Shown here: positions 11,539 to 29,050 of the stretch, piece after piece
Numbering within the stretch: position 1 is the first letter of the stretch
Layout of the letters: each line of letters opens with the position of its first letter
IMG/VR virus record: IMGVR_UViG_3300035698_009618
Coordinates: 1 to 44,393 of that record
Length of the DNA stretch: 44,393 bases
Source: a virus
Reading direction: 5' to 3' (one strand)
Translations under genes and position numbers: made by a program
Notes under the pieces: generated by a model
Database searches by the model: none
What the model was told of the DNA's origin: nothing
Seen by the model: only the letters and a program-made list of their open reading frames with translations

Positions 11539-11617
11539 TATCTTAAAGGCTGTTAGTTGTTAGCAGTCTTTATAGATAGTTATAGGTCATTTCAAGTTGA
11601 AACGATTTATTGACTAT

Positions 11618-11646
11618 TTGACGGGGAGGCATATTCATGTAATAAT
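11618..11646 (+). promoter_or_regulatory. Possible promoter upstream of the second early gene
   Basis: TTGACG (11,618-11,623) is followed 16-17 bases later by TAATAAT. A GGGGAGG followed by ATG-TAA, a start directly followed by a stop, lies inside this element and is probably not translated if transcription starts downstream. Confidence 0.35.
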
Positions 11647-11701
11647 GTCACCTCTTTACCACCAACGGCAATTTTGCCAAAATTCTATAAGGTCTATGAC
11701 T

Positions 11702-12364
11702 ATGATTACTTTTAAAACTAACTACAACTTTCGCGCCATTGCTTCAACTGCGGGTAACTATGCAACACAGCTAGCTGAGTTTGCAGCCAATACTATAGCT
11801 TTTACTACCACCACCGAGGGTGAAGGGCCAACACTTAAAACTAGTATCAAACGTGACAGCTTCTCCGCTGAGTTACCCGAAATCAGCATTGAGGCCTTCG
11901 CGCTCGTTGAGCCCAATTTTGTACAAGGTCTGATTAATGACGTAGTGGAAGCAGCTGCTAGAAAGAAATTTGTTGATGAGTTGTTGCCGATCGACCTTGA
12001 AGCGTTAACGCCAGCCTTTATTATTGAGTCATTAGCTAGTCAACGTGCTGCCGGTGTTAGTCAGGATCAAGTTAAGGCATTCGCTAAGCTGGTTGTATCG
12101 GTACTGACAGAAGCTGGCACCAAGAAAGGCACCATTGATATAGTTGAAACAATGATACTTAAGAAATTCGGTAAAGCGGTACTTGGTACTTATAGCCGGT
12201 TCGAAAGCAGCTTTGATCAACTGTTAGCTAAAGCGGTAATGACCTTAGAAGGTCAATCAGATGAGGTGATTAACGAGCACACCGCAGTTGTTGAGATGAT
12301 TAGTAAGAACCTTGAAACATTCCAGACTGCTGAGCTAGAAGATATTGAACTGGATCTGGACTAG
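11702..12364 (+). CDS. Early protein, unknown, acidic C-terminus
   Basis: This protein has 220 residues when the ATG at 11,702 is used. That ATG has an AAGG nine bases upstream, whereas the longest open frame begins with a TTG at 11,597 and has no ribosome site. The N-terminal 60 residues are beta-like and the rest helical. It ends in an acidic, hydrophobic tail (I-E-L-D-L-D), like several other early proteins here. It is followed by a strong terminator. The family is not recognised. Confidence 0.7.
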   Translation: MITFKTNYNFRAIASTAGNYATQLAEFAANTIAFTTTTEGEGPTLKTSIKRDSFSAELPEISIEAFALVEPNFVQGLINDVVEAAARKKFVDELLPIDLEALTPAFIIESLASQRAAGVSQDQVKAFAKLVVSVLTEAGTKKGTIDIVETMILKKFGKAVLGTYSRFESSFDQLLAKAVMTLEGQSDEVINEHTAVVEMISKNLETFQTAELEDIELDLD

Positions 12365-13250: not shown

Positions 13251-14576
13251 ATGTCTAATACCCACGTTAAACCAACCAACCAGCCAGCCAACCAGCCAGC
13301 TAGCATTGATACTCAGATGATGCTAGCTAGTCAATCAGCTAGTGAGTCAATCAATGCTAAAGCTCCGCAATATGCATCAACCTATTGCAGGCTAAGCGGA
13401 GTTGAGTTGCAGCGAACCCCAGTTATATTTAGTAACGAGCGATCAATTCACTTTAGCAAGCACTGGATTTTTAATCAGAAGTTAGCGGGTGTCTTAGGCT
13501 ATCACTATGCACAAGCGGATAAGACTCACAGTCAACGCTCACTGCTAGCTTTAGCTATGATCACTCAACCTCATCTACTAGGCCAGAATATTACTATTAA
13601 ATTCCCCGCAATATTTAATGAGCTTAAACTTAAGCGTAACTATGGACAACTAGTTCTAGTTGTTAAATTCTTAGATAACCTATCTAAGGAACGTAGACAA
13701 GTATTTCTACGTCAATTGCCTAAGCTAACTAGTAACAGCTTTGCTATGTTAGACTTTGGTCAGTCACCGGATTATCAATCAGTTAAGCTAGGTGATGCGG
13801 TCTTAAACTATGTACTTGAAACGGTAACTGGGGCTATGTACTCGAATCTTAGTATGAAACATAGCTTAGATGAACTGACCACCGAATCCCAGATGCTTAA
13901 ACTTGAGCTAGAATTCCAAGCTAGCATCAAAGCATCCAACGCACAAGCTGGTATCCTTAAGTCTAACGATGCTCCTAAGTCAACACCGATTAGCGACTAC
14001 TGGCAGTATATATTCGAAGAACTAGCAGTAACCTTTGAGTTATCCGGTGAGTCATTCGAATCTTTGAAACGCCAGCTCAGGTATCCTACCAACTTAGCCA
14101 AGCTGAATGAATTAGCCAGCTATCTTAATGGTCTATACGAGTCTACTAAGATTCGCCAGCACGAGACTATACCCTCTATTCAATTCCGCAATGCATTACT
14201 AGAGGTTCGCACATTAGCAGAAGCTATTACTAATGCTCAGAATAACTTAGACCTTAGAACCTTAGCTACCCGGGAGGCTATAGAAGTTATAGCTACATCT
14301 TCTAGCTCCACTACCACTCTCCTTCCTGAGCCAGTTAGCCAGTTATCAACCGAGGCTAGCACTTCGCAAGCTGCTAAAGTCTTTGCAGGTTCACGACTAG
14401 GTAACATTATGTCGAAGCTGGCTAAGTCAACAGCTACCGCTACTGCTAAACGCAATCAGCAAGCTACCAAAGTAGAAACAACTGCTATTGACTTTATAGT
14501 ATCAATCACGCCAGCTACTGAAGCCCCAGCCACACTAGCAGGTATTGATGAATTAGACTTAGGAGATAACTCATAA
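13251..14576 (+). CDS. Large early protein, unknown
   Basis: This 441-residue protein has a low-complexity Asn/Gln/Pro N-terminus encoded by small repeats and a globular centre. From about residue 345 a Ser/Thr/Ala-rich, probably disordered tail contains N-I-M-S-K-L near residue 383, similar to the peptide motif seen in the phage helicase. It ends in an acidic E-L-D-L-G-D tail. It has an AAGGAAG ribosome site and overlaps the next gene by one base (TAATG). The family is not recognised; its position suggests a role in early DNA metabolism or host takeover. Confidence 0.75.
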   Translation: MSNTHVKPTNQPANQPASIDTQMMLASQSASESINAKAPQYASTYCRLSGVELQRTPVIFSNERSIHFSKHWIFNQKLAGVLGYHYAQADKTHSQRSLLALAMITQPHLLGQNITIKFPAIFNELKLKRNYGQLVLVVKFLDNLSKERRQVFLRQLPKLTSNSFAMLDFGQSPDYQSVKLGDAVLNYVLETVTGAMYSNLSMKHSLDELTTESQMLKLELEFQASIKASNAQAGILKSNDAPKSTPISDYWQYIFEELAVTFELSGESFESLKRQLRYPTNLAKLNELASYLNGLYESTKIRQHETIPSIQFRNALLEVRTLAEAITNAQNNLDLRTLATREAIEVIATSSSSTTTLLPEPVSQLSTEASTSQAAKVFAGSRLGNIMSKLAKSTATATAKRNQQATKVETTAIDFIVSITPATEAPATLAGIDELDLGDNS

Positions 14577-15232: not shown

Positions 15233-15724
15233 ATGACTCCATTACCGCGTAGTAACATCTTTAAATACTTACATCCGTTAGACATACCAGCTTATATAAT
15301 TACCAAAGAGCTAGCGCATTATCTAGCTGAGCTGGTAGGTACTAGTCACAAGCTAACTAGCTTTGAGCCTAAGCGCCGACCAACTGCCGGATGTGCTTTA
15401 GGCCTATGCTATAGTAATGGTATTATATCAATAACCTACCGATATAAACGTCATAGCTTATGGTTACCTAAACCCTTCACACTAGCTGAGGTTATAGCTA
15501 CCACAGCTCATGAGGTAGCGCACCTTACCCACTTTGATCATAGCCCAGCCTTTAGACGATTAGAGGCTAAGCTAGTTGAAGCATCTATTGACTGGGTAAT
15601 AGATAACCCTAGTAGCTACAACTTCAAGCCTAGCTTAGCCGATGATATCTATGAGGCAATGGAGCGCAAAGCTAAGTACAACCGCAACGTGGTAAGATTA
15701 TTACCTGTAACTTTAGATCTTTAG
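15233..15724 (+). CDS. SprT/YgjP-like zinc metallopeptidase
   Basis: This 163-residue protein has the zinc-binding motif H93-E94-V-A-H97, followed by T-H-F-D-H103-S-P-A-F-R-R. That fits the H-E-x-x-H...H pattern of SprT/SPRTN and YgjP/M48-type domains, with E94 catalytic. SPRTN-type proteases remove proteins crosslinked to DNA; YgjP-like proteins are less well understood. The gene has its own strong promoter and an AAGGA site and is followed by a terminator, so it is a single-gene unit. In a phage it could clear host proteins from DNA or degrade a specific host target. The enzyme class is well supported, the role not. Confidence 0.8.
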   Translation: MTPLPRSNIFKYLHPLDIPAYIITKELAHYLAELVGTSHKLTSFEPKRRPTAGCALGLCYSNGIISITYRYKRHSLWLPKPFTLAEVIATTAHEVAHLTHFDHSPAFRRLEAKLVEASIDWVIDNPSSYNFKPSLADDIYEAMERKAKYNRNVVRLLPVTLDL

Positions 15725-16786: not shown

Positions 16787-18931
16787 ATGTCTAGCGCACT
16801 TGATTTACTTAAATCATTCAAGTCTAAAACTACCCCAGTAGCTCCAGTAGCTCCAGCACCTGTAGTGGCACCTGTAGTGGCACCTGTAGTAGCTCCAGTA
16901 GCTGTAGCTAAACCTAATGATATCCTAGCTAAGTTTGCTAACATCAAAACTCGCCAGCTTAACTCTAACTTACATAAGGCTACAGTTAAAGCTAGAGAGG
17001 TTACTGAGGCTAAAGCTACCAAAGCTACCAAAGCTACCAAAGTAGACTTGCTAGCTAAGTTCCGAGCTACCAACGCTACCAACGCTACCGCCAAGCCAGC
17101 TGAGCCAGCTACCCCACTAGCAGCTGAGCGCCTAGCTGCTAAACTTAATCTTAAGCTACCAGCTGTAGCTGCTACTATGTCAGTAGACTCCCCAGCTGCC
17201 ACTGCCTTTACTAAGGTAGCTACTACTGATCATAATGTACGTCGAGTTGAGAAACATGAGATAACTTATGATGATCTTAACACCGAGCAGGCTAAAGCAG
17301 TTGATATGTCAGAAGATGGTGAATCATTCTGCCTAATAGGCTCCGCTGGTACTGGTAAGTCAACTACCCAACGAGTAGTGTTAGAAACTCTAATGACTTC
17401 CGGTGCTGTGCGCCCATTACCTAAAGGCTTCACGCATAAAACCTTACCCAGTAATGCATTCTCTATTGTTATCTGTTCACTTATGAACAAGGCAGTTAAC
17501 AATATCAAGAACCTACTACCAGTAGAAGTTAAGTCTAATGCTTTAACTATCCATAAGCTACTTGAATACGCACCTGAAATGATAGAAAAAGAAGTACTTA
17601 ATGAAGATGGTGAGCTAGTTAAAGTTAACTCTCGTATCTTTGTACCTAACCGCCACGCCGGTAACCCTATTCACGGGCTAACTCATATCATAATAGAAGA
17701 ATCTTCTACTGTTAGCCTTGAGCTATTCGACCTACTACTAGATGCTTTGCCTAGTCGTGGTGCTAACATATGCTTCATCTTTCTAGGTGACATAAAACAG
17801 TTACCTCCAGTGTTCGGCCAGTCTATCTTAACTAAGAAGCTACGTGAGTTACCATGGGTTGAGTTAACTCAGGTATACCGTCAAGCCTTAGAGTCACCTA
17901 TCATCCGCCTAGCTGTAGCTATCAACGAGGGTAACTTACTATCAGACGCTACCCTTAAGTCTGACTTCCATACTCCCGACCAGCTAGAGTTGATTAACCT
18001 ATCAGGTATCCGAACCAACGGAACTAAAGTACCACGCCGTAAAGGTGAGTTACAAGTCTACGGATTAGCTAAGCACTTTGTTAGTCTACTAACTAGCGGT
18101 GAGTTTGTACCATTCAGGGATGTTATACTATGTCCTCATAGAGTTAACCGCCGTGATGACATTAACTGCGATCACCTAAACCAACTGATAGCTCAGGCCG
18201 ATGGTGAGCGCCGTAACGCTGAAGTATTTGAAATCATAGCTATCACCGCTAATAAGTACCTAGCTATAGGTGATCCAGTTATGTACAAGAAAGAAGAGTA
18301 CGAGGTAGTTGGTATTGAATCTAACCCTAACTATTCCGGTCGTGCTGCTAAGATACCTCATACTTCACTTAACCGTATAGGAGTCTATATGGATGAGGAC
18401 TTAGGAGAGTTAGACTTAGGCGATGAGGCTGCTGAGTTAGAGGCTATCATGAATGCGGTAGTTACTATGGCAGATGCTACCGCTGAGGATGATGACTCCA
18501 AGACTAGAGCTGCTAGTCATAAAGTTATCTTACGTTACATAACTTCCGATGCTAGCCAAGAACGTACTACCGAGGTAACAGCAGCCGGTGATATTAATGA
18601 TATTGAATTCGCTTACTGCCTAACGGTTCATAAGTCTATAGGCTCGGAGTGGGACAAGGTATGGCTACTAGCTCATCACTCAATGATCCGTATGTTTACT
18701 CGTGAGTTATTCTACACAGCTTGTACCCGCGCTAAGAATTACTTATGCGTTATGTATGATGGTCAGAACCACGCCAAGCGCCAGCTTAACTCTAGTATTA
18801 TCAACAAAGCTATAACTACACCTGAGATTAGAGGTGTTAGTATTACAGAAAAACTAGACTGGCTTGAGAACCAAGATAAACTTAAGCATGAGGACACCAG
18901 TAACTTACTTGCTAAGTTCGCAGCAGGTTAA
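16787..18931 (+). CDS. SF1B DNA helicase, RecD2/Dda-like
   Basis: This 714-residue protein has a helicase core starting near residue 160: L-N-T-E-Q-A-K-A-V, then Walker A G-S-A-G-T-G-K-S (185-192), a Walker B-like I-I-I-E-E-S, and G-D-I-K-Q-L-P-P-V (motif III). Near the C-terminus are L-T-V-H-K-S-I-G-S-E-W-D (motif V) and Y-T-A-C-T-R-A-K (motif VI). This is the RecD2/Dda type that moves 5' to 3'. The first 150 residues are Pro/Ala/Val/Lys/Thr-rich, probably disordered, and partly encoded by tandem repeats. They carry D-L-L-K-S-F (6-11), D-I-L-A-K-F (45-50) and D-L-L-A-K-F (87-92). The protein ends N-L-L-A-K-F-A-A-G. These four copies suggest several docking sites for one partner. Confidence 0.92.
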   Translation: MSSALDLLKSFKSKTTPVAPVAPAPVVAPVVAPVVAPVAVAKPNDILAKFANIKTRQLNSNLHKATVKAREVTEAKATKATKATKVDLLAKFRATNATNATAKPAEPATPLAAERLAAKLNLKLPAVAATMSVDSPAATAFTKVATTDHNVRRVEKHEITYDDLNTEQAKAVDMSEDGESFCLIGSAGTGKSTTQRVVLETLMTSGAVRPLPKGFTHKTLPSNAFSIVICSLMNKAVNNIKNLLPVEVKSNALTIHKLLEYAPEMIEKEVLNEDGELVKVNSRIFVPNRHAGNPIHGLTHIIIEESSTVSLELFDLLLDALPSRGANICFIFLGDIKQLPPVFGQSILTKKLRELPWVELTQVYRQALESPIIRLAVAINEGNLLSDATLKSDFHTPDQLELINLSGIRTNGTKVPRRKGELQVYGLAKHFVSLLTSGEFVPFRDVILCPHRVNRRDDINCDHLNQLIAQADGERRNAEVFEIIAITANKYLAIGDPVMYKKEEYEVVGIESNPNYSGRAAKIPHTSLNRIGVYMDEDLGELDLGDEAAELEAIMNAVVTMADATAEDDDSKTRAASHKVILRYITSDASQERTTEVTAAGDINDIEFAYCLTVHKSIGSEWDKVWLLAHHSMIRMFTRELFYTACTRAKNYLCVMYDGQNHAKRQLNSSIINKAITTPEIRGVSITEKLDWLENQDKLKHEDTSNLLAKFAAG
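16856..16891. repeat. 12-bp tandem repeat, three copies, coding
   Basis: GCACCTGTAGTG is repeated three times (the last with one change) in the N-terminal linker of the helicase gene and encodes A-P-V-V units. Confidence 0.9.
17012..17038. repeat. 9-bp tandem repeat, three copies, coding
   Basis: AAAGCTACC is repeated three times in the helicase linker and encodes K-A-T units. A similar GCTACCAAC series follows at about 17,067-17,091. Confidence 0.9.
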
Positions 18932-18940
18932 CCCAACAAT

Positions 18941-19522
18941 ATGAGTAATAAAATTATGAAAAATTTTCAGCGCCGTTTACTAACTACAATTATTCTGACA
19001 GCCACAGCCGCAACTACCTCAGCTGCCTCAGCTGCCACGCTGTCAACTCATCGCGAGGAGCAGCAAGCTATCAGCCAAGCGCAATCCATCCTAATAGCTA
19101 ATGGCTGTAACCGAGTTAGTTGGATTCGCTCCGCTGACTTAGCGGTTAACTCCCCGGATGCTGACTCAACCTCAGCTATCACCATAGTAGGTAAGACTAT
19201 TACTATGACTTGTGACCAGATCACGGAGGTAGAAGTAACTGAACCTCAGACCTCAGTAAAAGTTAGTTGGGATATCCCCACTACTAGAGAGAACTCTACG
19301 CTGTTACCCTTGGCTGAACTGAGCCACTACGAAATCTACTACCGCATACGTGGTACTCAGTTTGCTGACGGTGCGGTAGTAGTAATAGCTAATCCAGCTG
19401 ACACCTCAGTAGTTATCAATGACCTAACAGCTGGCCGCTGGTACTTTGCCATAGCAGCTGTTGATACTGCTGGTCTGTACTCTACGCTATCTGATTATAT
19501 ATACCAAGACTTAACCGAGTAA
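18941..19522 (+). CDS. Secreted fibronectin type III protein
   Basis: This 193-residue protein has a Sec-type signal peptide: a basic start (K-N-F-Q-R-R), a hydrophobic/alanine segment and a probable cleavage after A-S-A near residues 30-32. A middle region has two cysteines that could form a disulphide. Residues about 100-190 show the fibronectin type III pattern V-S-W...Y-E-I-Y-Y...L-T-A-G-x-W-Y-F-A-I-A-A-V-D-T-A-G-x-Y-S. It lies between helicase and replication genes, which is unusual for an exported protein. It may act in the periplasm or at the cell surface, for example to block receptors for other phages. This is inference; the domain and signal are well supported. Confidence 0.72.
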   Translation: MSNKIMKNFQRRLLTTIILTATAATTSAASAATLSTHREEQQAISQAQSILIANGCNRVSWIRSADLAVNSPDADSTSAITIVGKTITMTCDQITEVEVTEPQTSVKVSWDIPTTRENSTLLPLAELSHYEIYYRIRGTQFADGAVVVIANPADTSVVINDLTAGRWYFAIAAVDTAGLYSTLSDYIYQDLTE

Positions 19523-19523
19523 G

Positions 19524-19583
19524 CTAGTAGCCTCTAGTAGCCTCTAGTAGCCTCTAGTAGCCTCTAGTAGCCTCTAGTAGCCT
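19524..19583. repeat. 10-bp tandem repeat, six copies
   Basis: CTAGTAGCCT is repeated six times without change, beginning one base after the stop codon of the fibronectin-type gene. It is the longest perfect tandem array in the window. Confidence 0.95.
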
Positions 19584-19630
19584 AGAGCCACCAACTTACT
19601 CATCTCTGTACCACAACCAAGGAGACTACT

Positions 19631-20095
19631 ATGTCTTTACAACTGCTACACCCAACCGTTGCTACCAAAGCAAGTAAACTAACCATAGGTGATATGCTGC
19701 TAGTCTTAGGCCACTTCTATAAGGTAGCCGAGGTGCCGATGCTCAAGGGCACCGAGGATGATAACGGCCAAGAGCTTACCCGTGATGTAATTGGTAGCGC
19801 TAATCTTGTCCGCAACTTAACCAACTCAGTCCAGAGTAGTATAATACTGCAAGCCTTTAGTAACTACCAAGTAGTGGAGCTAGCAGACGTAGCTAATCTT
19901 ATGCCTAAAGGTAACGAGGCTAAGACTGGCACCTTTACTACTGGTGATCAGGTAAGTGGTAACGCTAACCGGCCAGGCTATGTACCTAATGACATCAAGG
20001 AAGCTGCACCAGTTGATGCACCAGACCCAGTTGCTCCAGATACTGCACCACCAGCCGGTGGTGCTGCTAGTCTACTTAATCGCCTTAAGAAATAG
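19631..20095 (+). CDS. Replication-arm protein with C-terminal motif tail
   Basis: This 154-residue protein has an AAGGAG ribosome site. The N-terminal part (about 1-100) is globular. The C-terminal part is a Pro/Ala/Asp-rich linker that ends S-L-L-N-R-L-K-K, similar to the L-L-A-K-F ends of the phage helicase and ATPase. A role as an accessory in the replication complex is inferred from that and from its position. The family is not recognised. Confidence 0.65.
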   Translation: MSLQLLHPTVATKASKLTIGDMLLVLGHFYKVAEVPMLKGTEDDNGQELTRDVIGSANLVRNLTNSVQSSIILQAFSNYQVVELADVANLMPKGNEAKTGTFTTGDQVSGNANRPGYVPNDIKEAAPVDAPDPVAPDTAPPAGGAASLLNRLKK

Positions 20096-20106
20096 GAGTT
20101 ACCTCA

Positions 20107-20526
20107 ATGGGCCTTGCTACTTTACCTAAGTCAACTAGGGTACACATCCTAGCCTCTATTATTGTGCGTCATGCTACTAACCGAGCTGGATCTCGTAAGC
20201 CAGCTGGTCAATTTCGCACAGTGATACGCAGCTTAGGCCAAGTGGACTGGCCCACTGTTGTTAGTTACCAGCGCTGGGATGACTGCGCTACCTTCTGCCT
20301 TACCTGCGCAGATATAACTTACTCGGACAACTACACCTATAACATCTACTTACCCTATTGCACCAGTTGTACGTTACCTAACGAGATAGCTCATCCACTT
20401 GCTACTCCTAAGCGTGATCGTCCTTACTTAAGCATAGAGGAATACTACTACTTACCGTTGCCATTACAGTCAGAAGTATTTAATAAAGTTCTTGACTTAT
20501 GCTGCGATGTACGTCATAATAACTAA
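20107..20526 (+). CDS. Cysteine-rich protein, possible zinc binding
   Basis: This 139-residue protein has its cysteines arranged C-x3-C-x2-C (from about residue 62) and C-x2-C (about 91-94), which could hold a zinc ion. The N-terminus is basic and the middle is rich in tyrosine. It is preceded by GGAG and follows the previous gene closely. The family is unknown. Confidence 0.6.
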   Translation: MGLATLPKSTRVHILASIIVRHATNRAGSRKPAGQFRTVIRSLGQVDWPTVVSYQRWDDCATFCLTCADITYSDNYTYNIYLPYCTSCTLPNEIAHPLATPKRDRPYLSIEEYYYLPLPLQSEVFNKVLDLCCDVRHNN

Positions 20527-20532
20527 TGCTCG

Positions 20533-20560
20533 ACCAACCAACTACCAACCAACTACCAAC
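20533..20560. repeat. 11-bp tandem repeat
   Basis: ACCAACCAACT occurs twice and then half again, just before the AAGGA ribosome site of the next gene. Confidence 0.88.
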
Positions 20561-20577
20561 AAGGATACCAACCTTCA

Positions 20578-20880
20578 ATGTCTAGCCGCGAACTAAAGTA
20601 CGATAGCCTAGTGCTAGTGCTAGCCTCTAAGGTTAGCCAAGGTGAGTTACCACAACTTAAGCTACGTATCAAAGCAGCGCCTAAGTCACTGGAGTTTACC
20701 AAACAAACAGAAGCTATTCGATCAGGACTAACACGTTCGATAGCAACTCACAACCGCGCAATGGCATCACTAGGTGAGCCAGCAATACCAGCGGGTGTAA
20801 GTACCAATTCACTTGACGACATAGTTACTATACGATTAGTTCCTAAGCGCAACACAGCAACTTTTGAACTACTTGACTAA
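20578..20880 (+). CDS. Small replication-arm protein, unknown (a)
   Basis: This 100-residue basic protein has a strand, then a helical centre, then a C-terminal beta hairpin (V-T-I-R-L-V-P-K-R-N-T-A-T-F-E-L-L-D). Its layout is like that of the next gene, so the two may be diverged duplicates. It ends in L-L-D. No family is recognised. Confidence 0.6.
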   Translation: MSSRELKYDSLVLVLASKVSQGELPQLKLRIKAAPKSLEFTKQTEAIRSGLTRSIATHNRAMASLGEPAIPAGVSTNSLDDIVTIRLVPKRNTATFELLD

Positions 20881-20891
20881 TAGGAACTATC

Positions 20892-21164
20892 ATGGCATCT
20901 GTTCACGCACCGATATGGGCTAGACTTAAAGAGAAACATTCAGTTAAGTTACAGCTACCAATGACTAACTTAACTCCAGCTCAAATGCCTGTAGAGTTTA
21001 AGAGTATACGCAAAGCTCTTAGTGATCTTAAAATGTCAGACGCTAGCTTCCAGAGGGCACAGCCACACGCTAGGTTAGAGGTAGTAACCCGTGATGTTAA
21101 CACTGGCATCATGGAACTTAAGTTAATATACGTTAATGTAGCTAAAGTCCTAGACTTAGACTAG
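20892..21164 (+). CDS. Small replication-arm protein, unknown (b)
   Basis: This 90-residue basic protein has an order of elements similar to its upstream neighbour: strand, helix with K-x-I-R-K-A-L, then a hairpin A-R-L-E-V-V-T-R-D-V-N-T-G-I-M-E-L-K. It ends in V-L-D-L-D, an ending shared with other early proteins here. An AGGAA site precedes the ATG. The function is unknown. Confidence 0.6.
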   Translation: MASVHAPIWARLKEKHSVKLQLPMTNLTPAQMPVEFKSIRKALSDLKMSDASFQRAQPHARLEVVTRDVNTGIMELKLIYVNVAKVLDLD

Positions 21165-21196
21165 GGAATACCACAAGGAATACCACAAGGAATACC
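21165..21196 (+). promoter_or_regulatory. Tripled GGA/ribosome-site leader
   Basis: The 12-bp unit GGAATACCACAA occurs two and two-thirds times directly before an ATG at 21,200, so the leader has three GGA motifs 12 bases apart, the last at the ribosome-site position. Spaced GGA motifs over a ribosome site are the usual target of CsrA, and this phage encodes a CsrA homologue. The link is inference. Confidence 0.55.
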
Positions 21197-21199
21197 TGT

Positions 21200-21904
21200 A
21201 TGAGTAATGATCTGTTAAGTAAGTTTAAAGTTAGTGGCACCGGCAGTCCAAAGTCTAAGCCTGCTGTTAGCCCTGAAGTCAAGGACCAAGTAGCAGCCTC
21301 CGAAGCTAGAGTTAACCCACTGATAGCTAGGTTTGCTAACAAGCTAGGCCAGGGAGTAGCAGGTGTAGAGGAAGGATCAGCTGGCCCACTCGAAGCTGGC
21401 CCACTCGAAGCTGGCCCACTCGAAGCTGGCCCACTCGACTCCAACCAAGCTAAGCCAGCTAAGCCAGCTACGCCAGCTAATCCAGCTAATGCTATGTTTG
21501 CTAAGTTAGCAGCAGCTCAAGGTGTAGTAACCTCAGCTGATAAAGCTCAACACGCAGCTGCTGTTACCTCAGCTCAGACCGAAGTACCTGAAGCTATCTA
21601 TACCCTGTCCGGTGACATACATAACATTAAAGACTTCCAAGCTGAGCAGTTCTCAGTTGTGCTAGCCAAGACTTATGTAGCGTTAACCGATGACCAGCCT
21701 GACTTAGCCATGTTACTTGAGCTAATCAATAAGAACCTACGCCAGTTTGAAGACCTTAGTTATCTGCTGTCCGATGATCAACTAAGTTTATATATCGACG
21801 GACTAATGCAAGCTAAGTCAGTTAACATTAAGACTAAGGTAGCTAAGAAGTCAGCTGCTAAGGTACAGCAAACAGTTGAAATGGAAGGAGGGTTAGACTT
21901 ATGA
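21200..21904 (+). CDS. Linker-rich protein with repeated docking-like motif
   Basis: This 234-residue protein starts with D-L-L-S-K-F (4-9) and has P-L-I-A-R-F (40-45) and A-M-F-A-K-L (98-103), the same peptide theme as in the helicase. A-G-P-L-E occurs four times at about 61-80, encoded by four 15-bp repeats, followed by a Pro/Ala linker. Residues about 120-215 are a helical domain. It ends in G-G-L-D-L. The stop overlaps the next start (ATGA). It looks like a multi-site scaffold or clamp-like adaptor of the replication machinery; this is inferred. The family is not recognised. Confidence 0.68.
   Translation: MSNDLLSKFKVSGTGSPKSKPAVSPEVKDQVAASEARVNPLIARFANKLGQGVAGVEEGSAGPLEAGPLEAGPLEAGPLDSNQAKPAKPATPANPANAMFAKLAAAQGVVTSADKAQHAAAVTSAQTEVPEAIYTLSGDIHNIKDFQAEQFSVVLAKTYVALTDDQPDLAMLLELINKNLRQFEDLSYLLSDDQLSLYIDGLMQAKSVNIKTKVAKKSAAKVQQTVEMEGGLDL
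21380..21439. repeat. 15-bp tandem repeat, four copies, coding
   Basis: GCTGGCCCACTCGAA is repeated four times (the last with one change) and encodes A-G-P-L-E units. Copy changes keep the frame. Confidence 0.95.
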
Positions 21905-22086
21905 GCCATGAACTAATAGTAGAAGTACCTAACACTGAGCTGCTAAGGCTAAGACTAATAGCTTTGCGCGCTGAGCAGTTATTCGATGAGATATTACCTA
22001 AGCTTCGCACCGTAGCCTTGGAAGACTACGAGAACTTTGTAGGGCTAGGTATCTTACTACACGATCACAACAGGACTCAGAGCTAA
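21901..22086 (+). CDS. Small helical protein, unknown
   Basis: This 61-residue, acidic, helical protein is coupled to the genes on both sides by an ATGA and a TAATG overlap, which supports that it is real. It may be an accessory of the nuclease encoded next. No family is recognised. Confidence 0.55.
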   Translation: MSHELIVEVPNTELLRLRLIALRAEQLFDEILPKLRTVALEDYENFVGLGILLHDHNRTQS

Positions 22087-23138
22087 TGCCACAACTAGAT
22101 TACGGAACAGCTGGCCACAAAGGTTTGAGTTACTCACGCCGTGGCACCTTACACTCCTGCGCTCGTAAGTTCCAGCTTGAGAATGTGTTCGGCTTTGCTA
22201 CTAAGTCAGACTCTAATACTTTTAGTTACGGTCATGCTGTAGCTGCTGGTGTGCAGGAATATTTCCTCAGTGGTGATCGTAAGTTAGCTATGGCTCAGTG
22301 TACTAAGCACTGGTCAATGCCGTGGGCTGACTTAGGTACTGGCAAGGAGATGAAGTCTAAGCGGTCAATCTGGTACGCGCTTAACGCAGTTGACAACTAC
22401 ATAACAGCCTGTAAGCATCTTATCTACGGTGACTTAGCTGAGCTACAGCAGTATGAGATAGCTTACTGTAACCCTACTGGTGAGCCAGACGGTGAGATAC
22501 CTTGCATAGAACTACAGTTCCGTATCCTATTAGAGAATGACTTTGTGTATGAGGGTCACATAGATCTGATACTACGCCACAAAGTTACAGGTGAGCTAGT
22601 TATCTTAGAGATTAAGACTACTGGCCTTAACGATCCACATGATGCTATGTATGAGAACTCTGACCAAGCTTTGAGTTACTCAATAGTTCTTGATAAGATA
22701 GTAGATGGTACTGGCTCAGCTAACTACAAAGTATTCTACTTAATCTATTCATCCCCTAAGCAGGAGTGGCTAGTCAAAGTATTTACTAAGTCTGCTAAGC
22801 GTAGGTTCGACTGGATCAACAACTTAATACGTGACTGTGAACTCATTGAGTACTACCAGTCAACCGCAGTTAGCGAAGAAGCTATACCTTATCCTACTAA
22901 TGGAGCTAGCTGCTATGAGTTCTTCTCGCCTTGTAAGTACTTTGGCAGCTGTGATATGGATGACGATAGTTTACATCTGTTCTATAAACGTGATGCTGCT
23001 GGGGCTGGAGCTAAGTCGTTTGACTACGTTGATAATACTAACTATGTATTTACTTTAGCTGAGATCATAGAGCGCCAAGTAGAACTTGCCAACGAACGTG
23101 TTGGTTTATCTATAGAATACTCAGCAGATGAGTTATAA
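22086..23138 (+). CDS. PD-(D/E)XK nuclease, Cas4/RecB-like, with four cysteines
   Basis: This 350-residue protein shows the nuclease core H50, then G-H-I-D160-L-I-L, V-I-L-E175-I-K177-T-T and Q194-A-L-S-Y. This is the RecB/Cas4 type PD-(D/E)XK pattern with QxxxY. Cysteine 25 near the N-terminus (S-C-A-R-K-F) and cysteines 276, 283 and 289 near the C-terminus (C-x6-C-x5-C) match the one-plus-three arrangement that binds an iron-sulphur cluster in Cas4 and AddB. It lies directly before a Sak4-like ATPase and probably works in end processing or recombination, or degrades host DNA. The nuclease call is firm; the iron-sulphur cluster is inferred. Confidence 0.85.
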   Translation: MPQLDYGTAGHKGLSYSRRGTLHSCARKFQLENVFGFATKSDSNTFSYGHAVAAGVQEYFLSGDRKLAMAQCTKHWSMPWADLGTGKEMKSKRSIWYALNAVDNYITACKHLIYGDLAELQQYEIAYCNPTGEPDGEIPCIELQFRILLENDFVYEGHIDLILRHKVTGELVILEIKTTGLNDPHDAMYENSDQALSYSIVLDKIVDGTGSANYKVFYLIYSSPKQEWLVKVFTKSAKRRFDWINNLIRDCELIEYYQSTAVSEEAIPYPTNGASCYEFFSPCKYFGSCDMDDDSLHLFYKRDAAGAGAKSFDYVDNTNYVFTLAEIIERQVELANERVGLSIEYSADEL

Positions 23139-23171
23139 TAATCAACCCACCTCAGAAGGAAACTACTAACA

Positions 23172-24071
23172 ATGGCTAATCTATTATCACGTAAGTCAAT
23201 ACCAACTGCCAAGAGACTAATGGTATTTGGTGGCCCTACTACAGGTAAGACTACCCTAGTGGGTGCTATAGCTAAGAAGTATAAAGTGCTATGGCTAGAC
23301 CTTGACCAAGGTATAGATACCTTATACCAAAGCCTAACTGATACTGAGTTAGAACGCATTGAGTATATCCGAGTAGCTGATACTATGGCTAACCCTATAG
23401 CTTGTGACACCTTAACTAAGATGTTTGTCACTGGCGGCAAGGGTTATATCTGTGAGGATCACTCAGCTTGGAACTGTCCTAAGTGTAGAGCTAAGGCATC
23501 CGAGTTCTTTGTTATAGACATGGCTGAGTTAACCTTAGCTAACGACTGGGTAATAGTAGTAGACTCAGGTACTCACTTCTCCGAGAGTTGTATTCACCGA
23601 GTACTTGATAACTCTAGTATTGACATTACCTTAGCTGGTAAGAATGACAAGGCTACCTTTGCAGTCTACATGGCGCAAGGTGCTATGCTTCATAAACTAC
23701 TAACATCAATTCAGAATGGTGTTAACTCAGTAGTTATGACAGCGCATGAGTTAGAGGTTGAGATGCCTGATAAGTCTAAGAAACTTGTACCATCAATGGG
23801 CACCACTAAGTTTGCCCGTACTATTAACAGTTACTTTAGCAGTGTGATACGTACCTCACAAGTTAATGGTGGCTTTAAGGTTGAGTCCTTAGCTGGATGC
23901 TCAAGAGCTGCTGACGTTGGTGGCTCACCTAACCTTGACTTGAACGACACGAAGGTTACTATCTGTGACTTTTTAAATCCCAGTAATATTGGAGCCAGCG
24001 ACTCCGGTGTGGCAACAACTAAGTTAGGTGGAGGCACCAAGCTAGACCTATCTAAATTCGCTAAGAAGTAA
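23172..24071 (+). CDS. Sak4-like RecA-superfamily ATPase with zinc-knuckle insert
   Basis: This 299-residue protein has Walker A G-G-P-T-T-G-K-T-T (20-28) and Walker B V-I-V-V-D131-S, and the length of the phage Sak4/AAA_24 single-strand annealing or RecA-like group. Between them, C94-x2-H97-x4-C102-x2-C105 forms a possible zinc knuckle. The tail ends K-L-D-L-S-K-F-A-K-K, a variant of the L-L-A-K-F motif of the helicase. With the nuclease before it and the candidate DNA-binding protein after it, it forms a recombination set. The start ATG has AAGGAA upstream. Confidence 0.83.
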   Translation: MANLLSRKSIPTAKRLMVFGGPTTGKTTLVGAIAKKYKVLWLDLDQGIDTLYQSLTDTELERIEYIRVADTMANPIACDTLTKMFVTGGKGYICEDHSAWNCPKCRAKASEFFVIDMAELTLANDWVIVVDSGTHFSESCIHRVLDNSSIDITLAGKNDKATFAVYMAQGAMLHKLLTSIQNGVNSVVMTAHELEVEMPDKSKKLVPSMGTTKFARTINSYFSSVIRTSQVNGGFKVESLAGCSRAADVGGSPNLDLNDTKVTICDFLNPSNIGASDSGVATTKLGGGTKLDLSKFAKK

Positions 24072-24133: not shown

Positions 24134-24622
24134 ATGTCTAAAATTGATAACGAAAGCTTAGCCGAAATGTCCGTAGAAGATTTACTGTCTCTTAACATTG
24201 AAGACATTAATGAAATGAAGTTCGTTACCCTACCTAAAGGTTTGTATGGTGGTACGCTAGAGAAATGGGACTTGCCAGACGAAGATAACAACAATAGCTT
24301 TGTACCTACGGTGCATGTTACTAGTGTTATTGAGCTTGCTGGTGATGAACCCTTCGAGCTACCAGCTGACTTTAAAATGAGTCCCCGCTATGGTCGTGAG
24401 TACCAAGGTGCTATCCGCGCCATGCGTACTGAGTGGGCTGACTTCTTTATTAAAGTTGGTGGTGGTCAGATGGGCGCAGCTATGGGTAACGGTAACGGTA
24501 CTCAGATAGTGTTCAAGGTTGAGCATCGTGTAGTTAAAGAAAAGAACGAAGACAACAAAGTTGTTAAAGGTGGCGAGACTAAGACTTTTGCTGAGATTAA
24601 ATCAGTGCAAGTCGCTAGCTAA
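24134..24622 (+). CDS. Candidate single-stranded DNA-binding protein
   Basis: This 162-residue protein has an acidic helical N-terminus (residues 1-28) and a beta-rich body with a glycine/asparagine loop (G-N-G-N-G-T). It lies between the Sak4-like ATPase and DNA polymerase, where Sak4-bearing phages often encode a single-strand binding protein. No OB-fold signature can be proven by eye. An AGGAA site precedes the ATG. The gene is followed by repeats and a terminator, which suggests high, separately regulated expression. Confidence 0.5.
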   Translation: MSKIDNESLAEMSVEDLLSLNIEDINEMKFVTLPKGLYGGTLEKWDLPDEDNNNSFVPTVHVTSVIELAGDEPFELPADFKMSPRYGREYQGAIRAMRTEWADFFIKVGGGQMGAAMGNGNGTQIVFKVEHRVVKEKNEDNKVVKGGETKTFAEIKSVQVAS

Positions 24623-27637: not shown

Positions 27638-29050
27638 ATGTCACATGAATCTTTATGCCCGCTGTTAGATGCATACTTAGAGCTAGTAGACGACACTGAG
27701 TCACCTACCTTATACCATCGCTGGTGTATGCTTAGTAACCTAGCAGCTATACTTAACCGACGTACCCAGATATCTATGCCAACTGGTGCAGTGTACCCTA
27801 ACACCTACGCTATACTACTAGGCCCACCTGCTGCTAGGAAGTCCACTGCAATAGCTATGGCTAGTAATCTACTTACTGCTGCTGGCTATGGCAAGACTGC
27901 TAGTGGCTCAACTACACCGCAGAAGTTCTTAGCTGATCTATACGAAGGCTTTGAGAACCTAGCTAACCAAGAGCTAACTGACGACTCAGGCTTAGACCTA
28001 GACTTAGATGGTAGCTTCTCTAACCACGTAACCAAGCGGGTCAGTGATGTTCTGATCAACGCGGGTGAACTACAGGATTTCCTAGGCATCAATAACTTCG
28101 GATTCATTAGCCTTATAACTAACATGTTTGATAACCTTGATCACTATGATGATCGTATCAAAACTGGTAAGTCTAACCGTATCATCCGTCCCACTATAAC
28201 CTTGATGGGTGGAGCTACACCTACTAGCTTTCGTAAGATGTTCCCCATTGAGATACTCGGCCAAGGTTTACTTAGTCGATTCATTCTAGTACATGGAGCT
28301 GGCCCGCGTAAGAAGTCATTTATGCCTAAGCCCTTTGATGCTAAGTTACGCGCTAATATAATTGAACAACTTAACTACTTACTAACTACTCCTGAATTAC
28401 CCAGTGAACTGAGCTTTACTCCTAACGCATTTGAATACTCCAGAGTCTTATACGAATCACCGCAAGACGAGATAGCAGATCCACGCTTCCAGTACTACAA
28501 CGGCAGACGCAACACACACTACATGAAACTAATTCAGCTGATAGCAATAGCCAACGGCCATACATCTATAGAAGAAACAGATTGTTTATTAGCTAATACT
28601 ATATTAACTTACACCGAGAAGTTCATGCCTAAAGCTCTAGGGGAATTCGGATTAGATAAAGCAGCAGAGCAGACAGAGACAGTATTCGAATACATACGCA
28701 TGGCTGGCACTAGAGGCATAACCATGAAAGAGTTAGTTAGCAAAGTAATAGCAGTAGTTCCTAGCGCAGCTGAGTTATCATCTCACATAGTTAAACTATC
28801 TAACACTAGCCGCATAGACAAGATACAACGTGAAGGTACTAACTACTATATACAAGTAGAGCGAGTAGTCCAGACTAAGTCAACTATGGTTAACTTTGAG
28901 TTACTACAGGAATACCGTGAGAACCGAACATTCGATACAGGGTTTATACTAGACCCAGCTAAGCTCGAAGCTTATGAGCTAGCAAGCAAGTTTAAGATGA
29001 GTAGTGAGGGAAGTAATAACCCTGACGCTGATTTTGAAATAATAAGTTAA
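27638..29050 (+). CDS. DUF3987-like ATPase, primase/helicase associated
   Basis: This 470-residue protein has Walker A L-G-P-P-A-A-R-K-S-T (61-70) and a later acidic stretch followed by a G-E-L-Q-D-F segment. The ATPase core is like DUF3987 proteins, which occur as the helicase part of phage and plasmid primase-helicases. The C-terminal part (from about 340) looks like a winged helix. No primase domain is visible, so it may be the replicative helicase or loader. The assignment is moderately sure. Confidence 0.65.
   Translation: MSHESLCPLLDAYLELVDDTESPTLYHRWCMLSNLAAILNRRTQISMPTGAVYPNTYAILLGPPAARKSTAIAMASNLLTAAGYGKTASGSTTPQKFLADLYEGFENLANQELTDDSGLDLDLDGSFSNHVTKRVSDVLINAGELQDFLGINNFGFISLITNMFDNLDHYDDRIKTGKSNRIIRPTITLMGGATPTSFRKMFPIEILGQGLLSRFILVHGAGPRKKSFMPKPFDAKLRANIIEQLNYLLTTPELPSELSFTPNAFEYSRVLYESPQDEIADPRFQYYNGRRNTHYMKLIQLIAIANGHTSIEETDCLLANTILTYTEKFMPKALGEFGLDKAAEQTETVFEYIRMAGTRGITMKELVSKVIAVVPSAAELSSHIVKLSNTSRIDKIQREGTNYYIQVERVVQTKSTMVNFELLQEYRENRTFDTGFILDPAKLEAYELASKFKMSSEGSNNPDADFEIIS

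Follow-up and report, generated by a model that had tools for sequence, protein, structure and literature searches.

The 44,393-base stretch of DNA analyzed here (the window; IMG/VR virus record IMGVR_UViG_3300035698_009618) carries a replication cassette on its plus strand, and a short peptide of the type DLLAKF recurs in several proteins of this region. Sharing of the peptide between a Dda/RecD2-like helicase and the protein encoded at 21200 to 21904 (family 4) is secure and beyond chance in the window, since a profile that uses only the helicase copies ranks the latter protein above all 300 shuffled proteomes; the other proteins to which an earlier note on this DNA had ascribed the motif are candidates. 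Related loci (L numbers below) were gathered by alignment-based scans from 152 genomes whose helicase cores differ, and in these relatives the extensions of the same two proteins are more alike when both come from one genome than when they come from different genomes. The best explanation, and in our judgment a probable one, is a coevolving docking motif, i.e., a short linear motif through which these proteins would bind a common partner. It is favored because the positions of the copies, the disorder around them, the genome-specific matching, and the independence of codons agree, and because generic helices or neutral exchange of tails explain the matching less well.

Pfam and PHROG matches identify as members of the cassette the helicase (16787), a PDDEXK nuclease (22086), a Sak4-like ATPase (23172), and a family-A DNA polymerase (24743). 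The helicase is a superfamily 1 protein of 714 amino acids (16787 to 18931, plus strand, as are all motif copies and candidate partners below; Pfam AAA_30/UvrD_C_2; PHROG 325, Dda-like helicase), with RecD2 (3e1s) as its closest solved structure. Its low-complexity N-terminal extension of ~140 amino acids holds three copies of the motif, and a fourth lies at the C-terminal end. By translation they read DLLKSF at residues 6 to 11 (16802 to 16819), DILAKF at residues 45 to 50 (16919 to 16936), DLLAKF at residues 87 to 92 (17045 to 17062), and NLLAKF at residues 706 to 711 (18902 to 18919), the last followed only by AAG before the protein ends. The earlier note counted all four as [DN]-L-L-A-K-F; the imperfect first copy does not fit this pattern. 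The family-4 protein has 234 amino acids and was assigned by the hidden Markov model (HMM) of its relatives' family (E = 1e-24); no credible Pfam or PHROG family and no known domain were found for it. It carries the motif in its N-terminal extension and ends in an acidic tip, GGLDL. The three copies claimed for it are all present, namely, DLLSKF at residues 4 to 9 (21209 to 21226), PLIARF at residues 40 to 45 (21317 to 21334), and AMFAKL at residues 98 to 103 (21491 to 21508, translation only and not significant alone), but the second and third, which are weaker, deviate from the claimed pattern.

Translation also confirmed the letters reported for three other proteins. The Sak4-like ATPase (23172 to 24071; PHROG 124, Sak4-like, E = 4.7e-14; Pfam AAA_24) has the RecA-like ATPase core of the Sak4 family, and its homolog in L073 matches, among RecA-like folds, the solved Sak4 8rc5. 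Its C-terminal letters, KLDLSKFAKK, include DLSKF at residues 292 to 296 (24045 to 24059), and motif-like C-terminal tips occur in several relatives. The protein encoded at 13251 belongs to the CxISG family (E = 1.8e-5) and has NIMSKL at residues 385 to 390 (14403 to 14420); a protein upstream of the helicase with such a peptide in its C-terminal tail is also found in L048, L155, L156, L167, and PaP2 (L173). The protein encoded at 19631 ends in SLLNRLKK (SLLNRL, 20069 to 20086), a copy known from sequence only, as no relatives of this protein and hence no comparative evidence were found. An additional copy, ELASKF, lies near the C-terminal end of the protein encoded at 27638 (residues 447 to 452; 28976 to 28993), which groups with a primase-annotated family of relatives; the corresponding tail pair, ELASKFKMSSEG and DLLSKFKVSGTG, scored 39. 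This copy is suggestive, although primase-family C-terminal tails in general showed no enrichment (0/21). The copies had been placed in disordered regions outside folded cores, and this is borne out: those of the helicase lie outside its aligned core, and a natural in-frame read-through of Sak4 into a single-stranded DNA-binding protein (SSB) in L073, folded with AlphaFold as a docking probe, gave confident Sak4 and SSB domains and a Sak4 tail that is disordered (predicted local distance difference test score [pLDDT] of <50) around a short helix.

The profile that carries the finding in the window was made from the four helicase copies and run on the other 41 proteins (12,358 windows). NDLLSKFK of the 21200 protein ranked first with 18.0 bits, compared to a mean best score of 11.1 and a maximum of 15.8 in the 300 shuffled proteomes; NPLIARFA of the same protein came second with 10.9 bits, which is inside the noise. 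Patterns fitted to the copies matched 7 times in replication proteins, 0.13 to 0.19 times in shuffles, and never in the remaining proteome, a count that is post hoc since the patterns were derived from the copies themselves. Thus, the claim that the motif exceeds its occurrence in shuffled sequences stands for the helicase and the 21200 protein and not for the other copies taken singly.

Relatives of the helicase were recovered with alignment queries; used alone as a viral-contig query, the helicase protein found none. Among annotated phages, the helicase is closest to those of Aeromonas phage P5, the PaP2/119X group, EBPR podovirus 3, and Polaromonas phage Tiera (31 to 34% identity), and the exact motif [DN]LLAKF is absent from these four. 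Most relatives' helicases nevertheless carry an N-terminal peptide with the consensus [RK]LAELLAxARAK (log-likelihood of 743 versus ~305 for shuffled sequences), so that the family consensus is nearer to LAELLAKARA than to [DN]LLAKF. Two-fold cross-validation recovered the peptide in 84/120 extensions (scores beyond the 99th percentile of each extension's shuffled versions). Family-4 proteins with an N-terminal extension yielded the de novo motif kLAALvAKla, which aligns with that of the helicase at an offset of 0 (P = 0.007). What is conserved across the 152 genomes is an arrangement: the N-terminal extensions of the helicase and the 21200 family bear a short, mostly basic, amphipathic peptide, as do, often, the Sak4 C-terminal tip and the C-terminal tail of the 13251 family. 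The proposal that the motif is conserved in related phages therefore fails for its exact letters and holds for its positions and its within-genome matching. The helicase of L163, from another lineage, has at least four related copies in its N-terminal extension (TLAEKLALRR, SFAERMALKK, TFAEKMALRK, and SLSEKLKRIAREK), parallel to the multicopy helicase of the window.

How would peptides on different proteins evolve if all of them dock on one changing partner? They should be more alike within than between genomes. The similarity of helicase and family-4 extensions was 33.35 in the same genome, 25.19 in mismatched genomes, and 23.6 in matched shuffled sequences (permutation P = 1e-4, n = 20), and the genome's own partner ranked top in 8/20 genomes compared to ~1 expected; an earlier first sample had given P = 4e-4. 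Control comparisons of the helicase with the SSB C-terminal end (P = 0.82) and the PDDEXK N-terminal end (P = 0.14) were not significant. Clear pairs of helicase and family-4 peptides include GLNLTKLAALVA/GLNLNKLAALVA in L077 and SLQDILAAK in both proteins of L158, as well as those of L066 and L167. At the residues shared by nine pairs, 37/93 codons are identical, compared to 36.8 expected for independent choice. The DNA has diverged and the peptide has been kept; since the shared residues use independent codons, a recent duplication of DNA does not account for the sharing. A blind tail-pair test over 85 genomes, which served for finding examples and not as proof, gave 14 pairs scoring ≥42 versus 1.3 in shuffles; the majority of the highest-scoring pairs resemble neighboring paralogs, and motif pairs account for only 3 of the 14 (L077, L066, and L001).

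In L047 the usual peptide is missing in three proteins at once. Its helicase extension, family-4 extension, and Sak4 C-terminal tip carry GLVIPTRKAATQ, TFVIPNKKPATQ, and PTFTLGAKK, respectively, and the pattern [FL][VT][IL][PG]x[KR] occurs in just these three proteins of the locus. In its near relative L054 the family-4 and Sak4 forms are kept and the helicase has GLVIPSSKP. These sequences are suggestive of a coordinated replacement by a different peptide in three proteins, in a single lineage and with a short Sak4 match. L167, in turn, has [NS]FL-type peptides in the helicase, the family-4 protein, the Sak4 tip, and the CxISG tail.

Under the docking explanation, the peptide would be an amphipathic, mostly basic helix of 6 to 10 residues, of the type [hydrophobic][hydrophobic]x[K/R][hydrophobic], displayed on disordered N-terminal extensions or C-terminal tips of replication and recombination cassette proteins, with the helicase and the family-4 protein as carriers, joined in several lineages by Sak4, the CxISG protein, and the DNA polymerase. 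All copies may engage one groove of a shared phage protein at the fork. Several enzymes would thereby be gathered there, and the multicopy helicase would bind most avidly. The earlier note's proposal that several replication proteins display a docking peptide on flexible ends thus gains from the helicase/family-4 matching, the independent codons, and the L047 triple replacement, which do not extend to the membership of every listed protein or to any particular partner. A broader version is a tentative possibility: a phage-private docking code in this podovirus-like group, in which the peptide on the helicase, family-4, Sak4, CxISG, and polymerase proteins would coevolve with one hub and be jointly replaceable, as in L047, possibly along with a second, acidic C-terminal tip of small cassette proteins.

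Several results weigh against the docking explanation or limit it. The Sak4, 19631, and 13251 copies fell outside the top 15 matches of the helicase-only profile and are individually not significant. A blind search for 6-mer seeds in the window was at first dominated by Pro/Ala linkers; after these were masked, the motif was the top seed, yet with P of ~0.12. The majority of family-4 proteins are short, without any extension. Sak4 tips are motif-like in many genomes, but within-genome matching of the helicase with Sak4 was not significant in either test (P = 0.29 and P = 0.11), which leaves unsupported the view that every listed protein carries the motif, and a de novo motif of Sak4 tails did not match that of the helicase (P = 0.24). 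A profile trained on helicases matched 27/81 Sak4 tails, 13/25 polymerase N-terminal extensions, and 18/103 CxISG C-terminal tails; enrichment in Sak4 tails is not specific, because control folded ends were enriched too (PDDEXK C-terminal ends, 32/114; Sak4 N-terminal ends, 19/111). We rejected this profile as evidence for the Sak4, CxISG, and polymerase tails, since it also matches folded amphipathic helices. The matched test of helicase and CxISG gave P = 4e-4 and is not decisive, because low-complexity segments and the conserved C-terminal helix of the CxISG family contribute to it. Recurrence in nonhomologous proteins of one proteome beyond chance, a general mark of docking motifs, was found, and for the helicase and family 4 only. 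In the L073 read-through model, the Sak4 peptide is a helix with a pLDDT of ~59 between disordered flanks and has no confident placement on the SSB; the model neither supports nor excludes docking of the peptide there.

Could the matching arise without a docking partner? Extension segments might have been copied between genes of one phage long ago and persisted as neutral or generic linkers, as the strongest pairs are N-terminal and include flanking residues (L077, L066, and L158). Codon identity at chance level, however, means that the peptide was kept and not the DNA, and N-terminal extensions also share peptides with C-terminal tips (L004, L048, and L167), so we regard such exchange as unlikely. 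Amphipathic helices that contact membranes are well known, such as the membrane-targeting helices of MinD and FtsA, and basic helices of this sort may have evolved independently here to touch DNA, RNA, or membrane with no specific protein partner. LAELLAKARA is indeed a plain amphipathic basic helix, and the profile also matches ordinary folded helices. Sequence-specific matching within genomes that includes polar positions (SLQDILAAK and GLNLxKLAALVA) would be unexpected on these terms, as would the proline or glycine in the replacement peptide of L047, which makes generic helices a rather improbable account. Chance in linkers rich in A, K, and L is compatible with the blind window search and with the individually nonsignificant copies, and it may hold for the 19631 protein; for the helicase and family 4, which exceed both shuffles and mismatched genomes, it is contradicted, and as a general explanation it has little to commend it.

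Two further alternatives keep a specific partner and change its identity. BRC repeats of BRCA2 mimic the FxxA motif of RAD51, and the helicase and family-4 extensions might likewise mimic a polymerization motif of Sak4, whose core would then be the shared partner. Sak4 is a RecA/Rad51-like ATPase, often with a similar terminal peptide, and the helicase is multicopy like BRCA2. We nonetheless hold this to be very unlikely, given that many genomes retain the helicase peptide alongside a short, tail-less Sak4, that the copies lack FxxA, and that covariation of the Sak4 core is unremarkable (0.13). Docking on the host sliding clamp, or action like that of the SSB C-terminal tip, is suggested by the flexible-end positions and by the presence in polymerase and helicase. 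No copy has a leading Q or the QLxLF pattern, and the copies are basic and often internal whereas SSB tips are acidic, so this reading is already disfavored and appears extremely improbable.

If the docking explanation is right, the likeliest partners are two candidates, the SSB-like protein encoded at 24134 to 24622 and the widespread family-6 protein encoded at 11597 to 12364. The former is an OB-fold protein with ordered acidic N-terminal helices (relatives' SSB-like family HMM, E = 4.8e-12); its AlphaFold 2 model has a pLDDT of 92, and Foldseek matches it to PrgE and bacterial SSBs (E of 0.004 to 0.01). The earlier note had named this candidate DNA-binding protein, along with host SSB or clamp, as a possible partner; docking on it was not predicted with confidence in the model from the relative L073. 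The family-6 protein (HMM, E = 1e-4; no Pfam or PHROG family) has the acidic tip IELDLD, and its start is TTG, with the true start probably further downstream. With the helicase core taken into account, partial covariation with the helicase peptide was 0.23 for family 6, 0.17 for family 4, 0.14 for SSB, and 0.13 for Sak4, small differences that are confounded by phylogeny. The family-6 gene directly follows the helicase in most relatives and lies upstream of it in the window.

Other features of the locus were noted alongside. In some genomes (L035, L058, and L062), an acidic segment at the N terminus of the SSB, LLDATLDDLAD, is similar to the N-terminal end of the PDDEXK nuclease, and in L001 the SSB N-terminal end resembles the family-4 C-terminal tip (DMSIEQLLAL and DLSIEQIMSML). 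Small cassette proteins of the window have acidic-hydrophobic C-terminal tips, FELLD, KVLDLD, GGLDL, IELDLD, and VTLDL, at C-terminal ends 20880, 21164, 21904, 12364, and 15724, respectively. Such tips are common in families 4, 6, 8, and 10 of relatives (60 to 83%, compared to 17% overall; for example, L066, L077, L047, and L031), and those of families 4 and 6 match within genomes (P = 6e-4), as in TASLGF and SDALGF of L066. From translation, the protein encoded at 18941 to 19522, adjoining the helicase downstream within the cassette, has a signal-peptide-like N terminus, and that encoded at 15233 to 15724 has a HEVAH metallopeptidase-like motif and a SprT-like appearance.

If true, the docking explanation means that uncharacterized phage replication machinery is organized by a peptide code readable from sequence, which names the proteins that assemble together and predicts new members, several of them without assigned function. 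Motif and receptor would also form a naturally occurring example of joint change, and the peptide would open an easy way to the hub. In text searches covering the open-access literature, no described motif of this form was found, in agreement with the earlier note.

Compared to known docking systems, the motif would resemble clamp-binding or SSB-tip motifs in action and, by its sequence, belongs to neither, because their defining features are absent. Clamp motifs (bacterial QL[SD]LF and the PIP box) likewise link many enzymes through one short tail motif to one presumed groove; here there is no glutamine and no LF end, and the sequence is genome specific. None of the listed copies has the clamp arrangement of Q first, then L/x and LF or LxF, and clamp-pattern matches in the motif-bearing proteins lie elsewhere (QNNLDL and QSSIIL); a phage clamp was not recognized among the proteins searched, in a search that was not exhaustive. 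As with BRC repeats and RAD51 FxxA, a disordered partner bears several copies here and the recombinase may bear one of its own, but the window copies (KFANI, KFRAT, KFAAG, and KFKVS) lack the F-x-x-A tetrad and many Sak4 homologs lack the peptide. The tips of Escherichia coli SSB and phage HK620 SSB parallel the present case in that several replication and recombination proteins are connected via one hub by a short peptide located on a flexible tail, with the same protein classes, Sak4 and SSB. In phage HK620 the contact runs in the reverse direction, through the acidic SSB tip, which Sak4 requires to bind SSB-coated DNA, and on single-stranded DNA only (PMC5928155). An SSB tip is acidic, at the extreme C terminus, with a hydrophobic end, while the copies described here are basic and either lie at N-terminal or internal positions or precede K, A, or G. 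SSB systems thus have one acidic tip on SSB and many folded partners; here, a basic amphipathic peptide of phage-specific sequence is repeated on the enzymes, often in N-terminal or internal positions.

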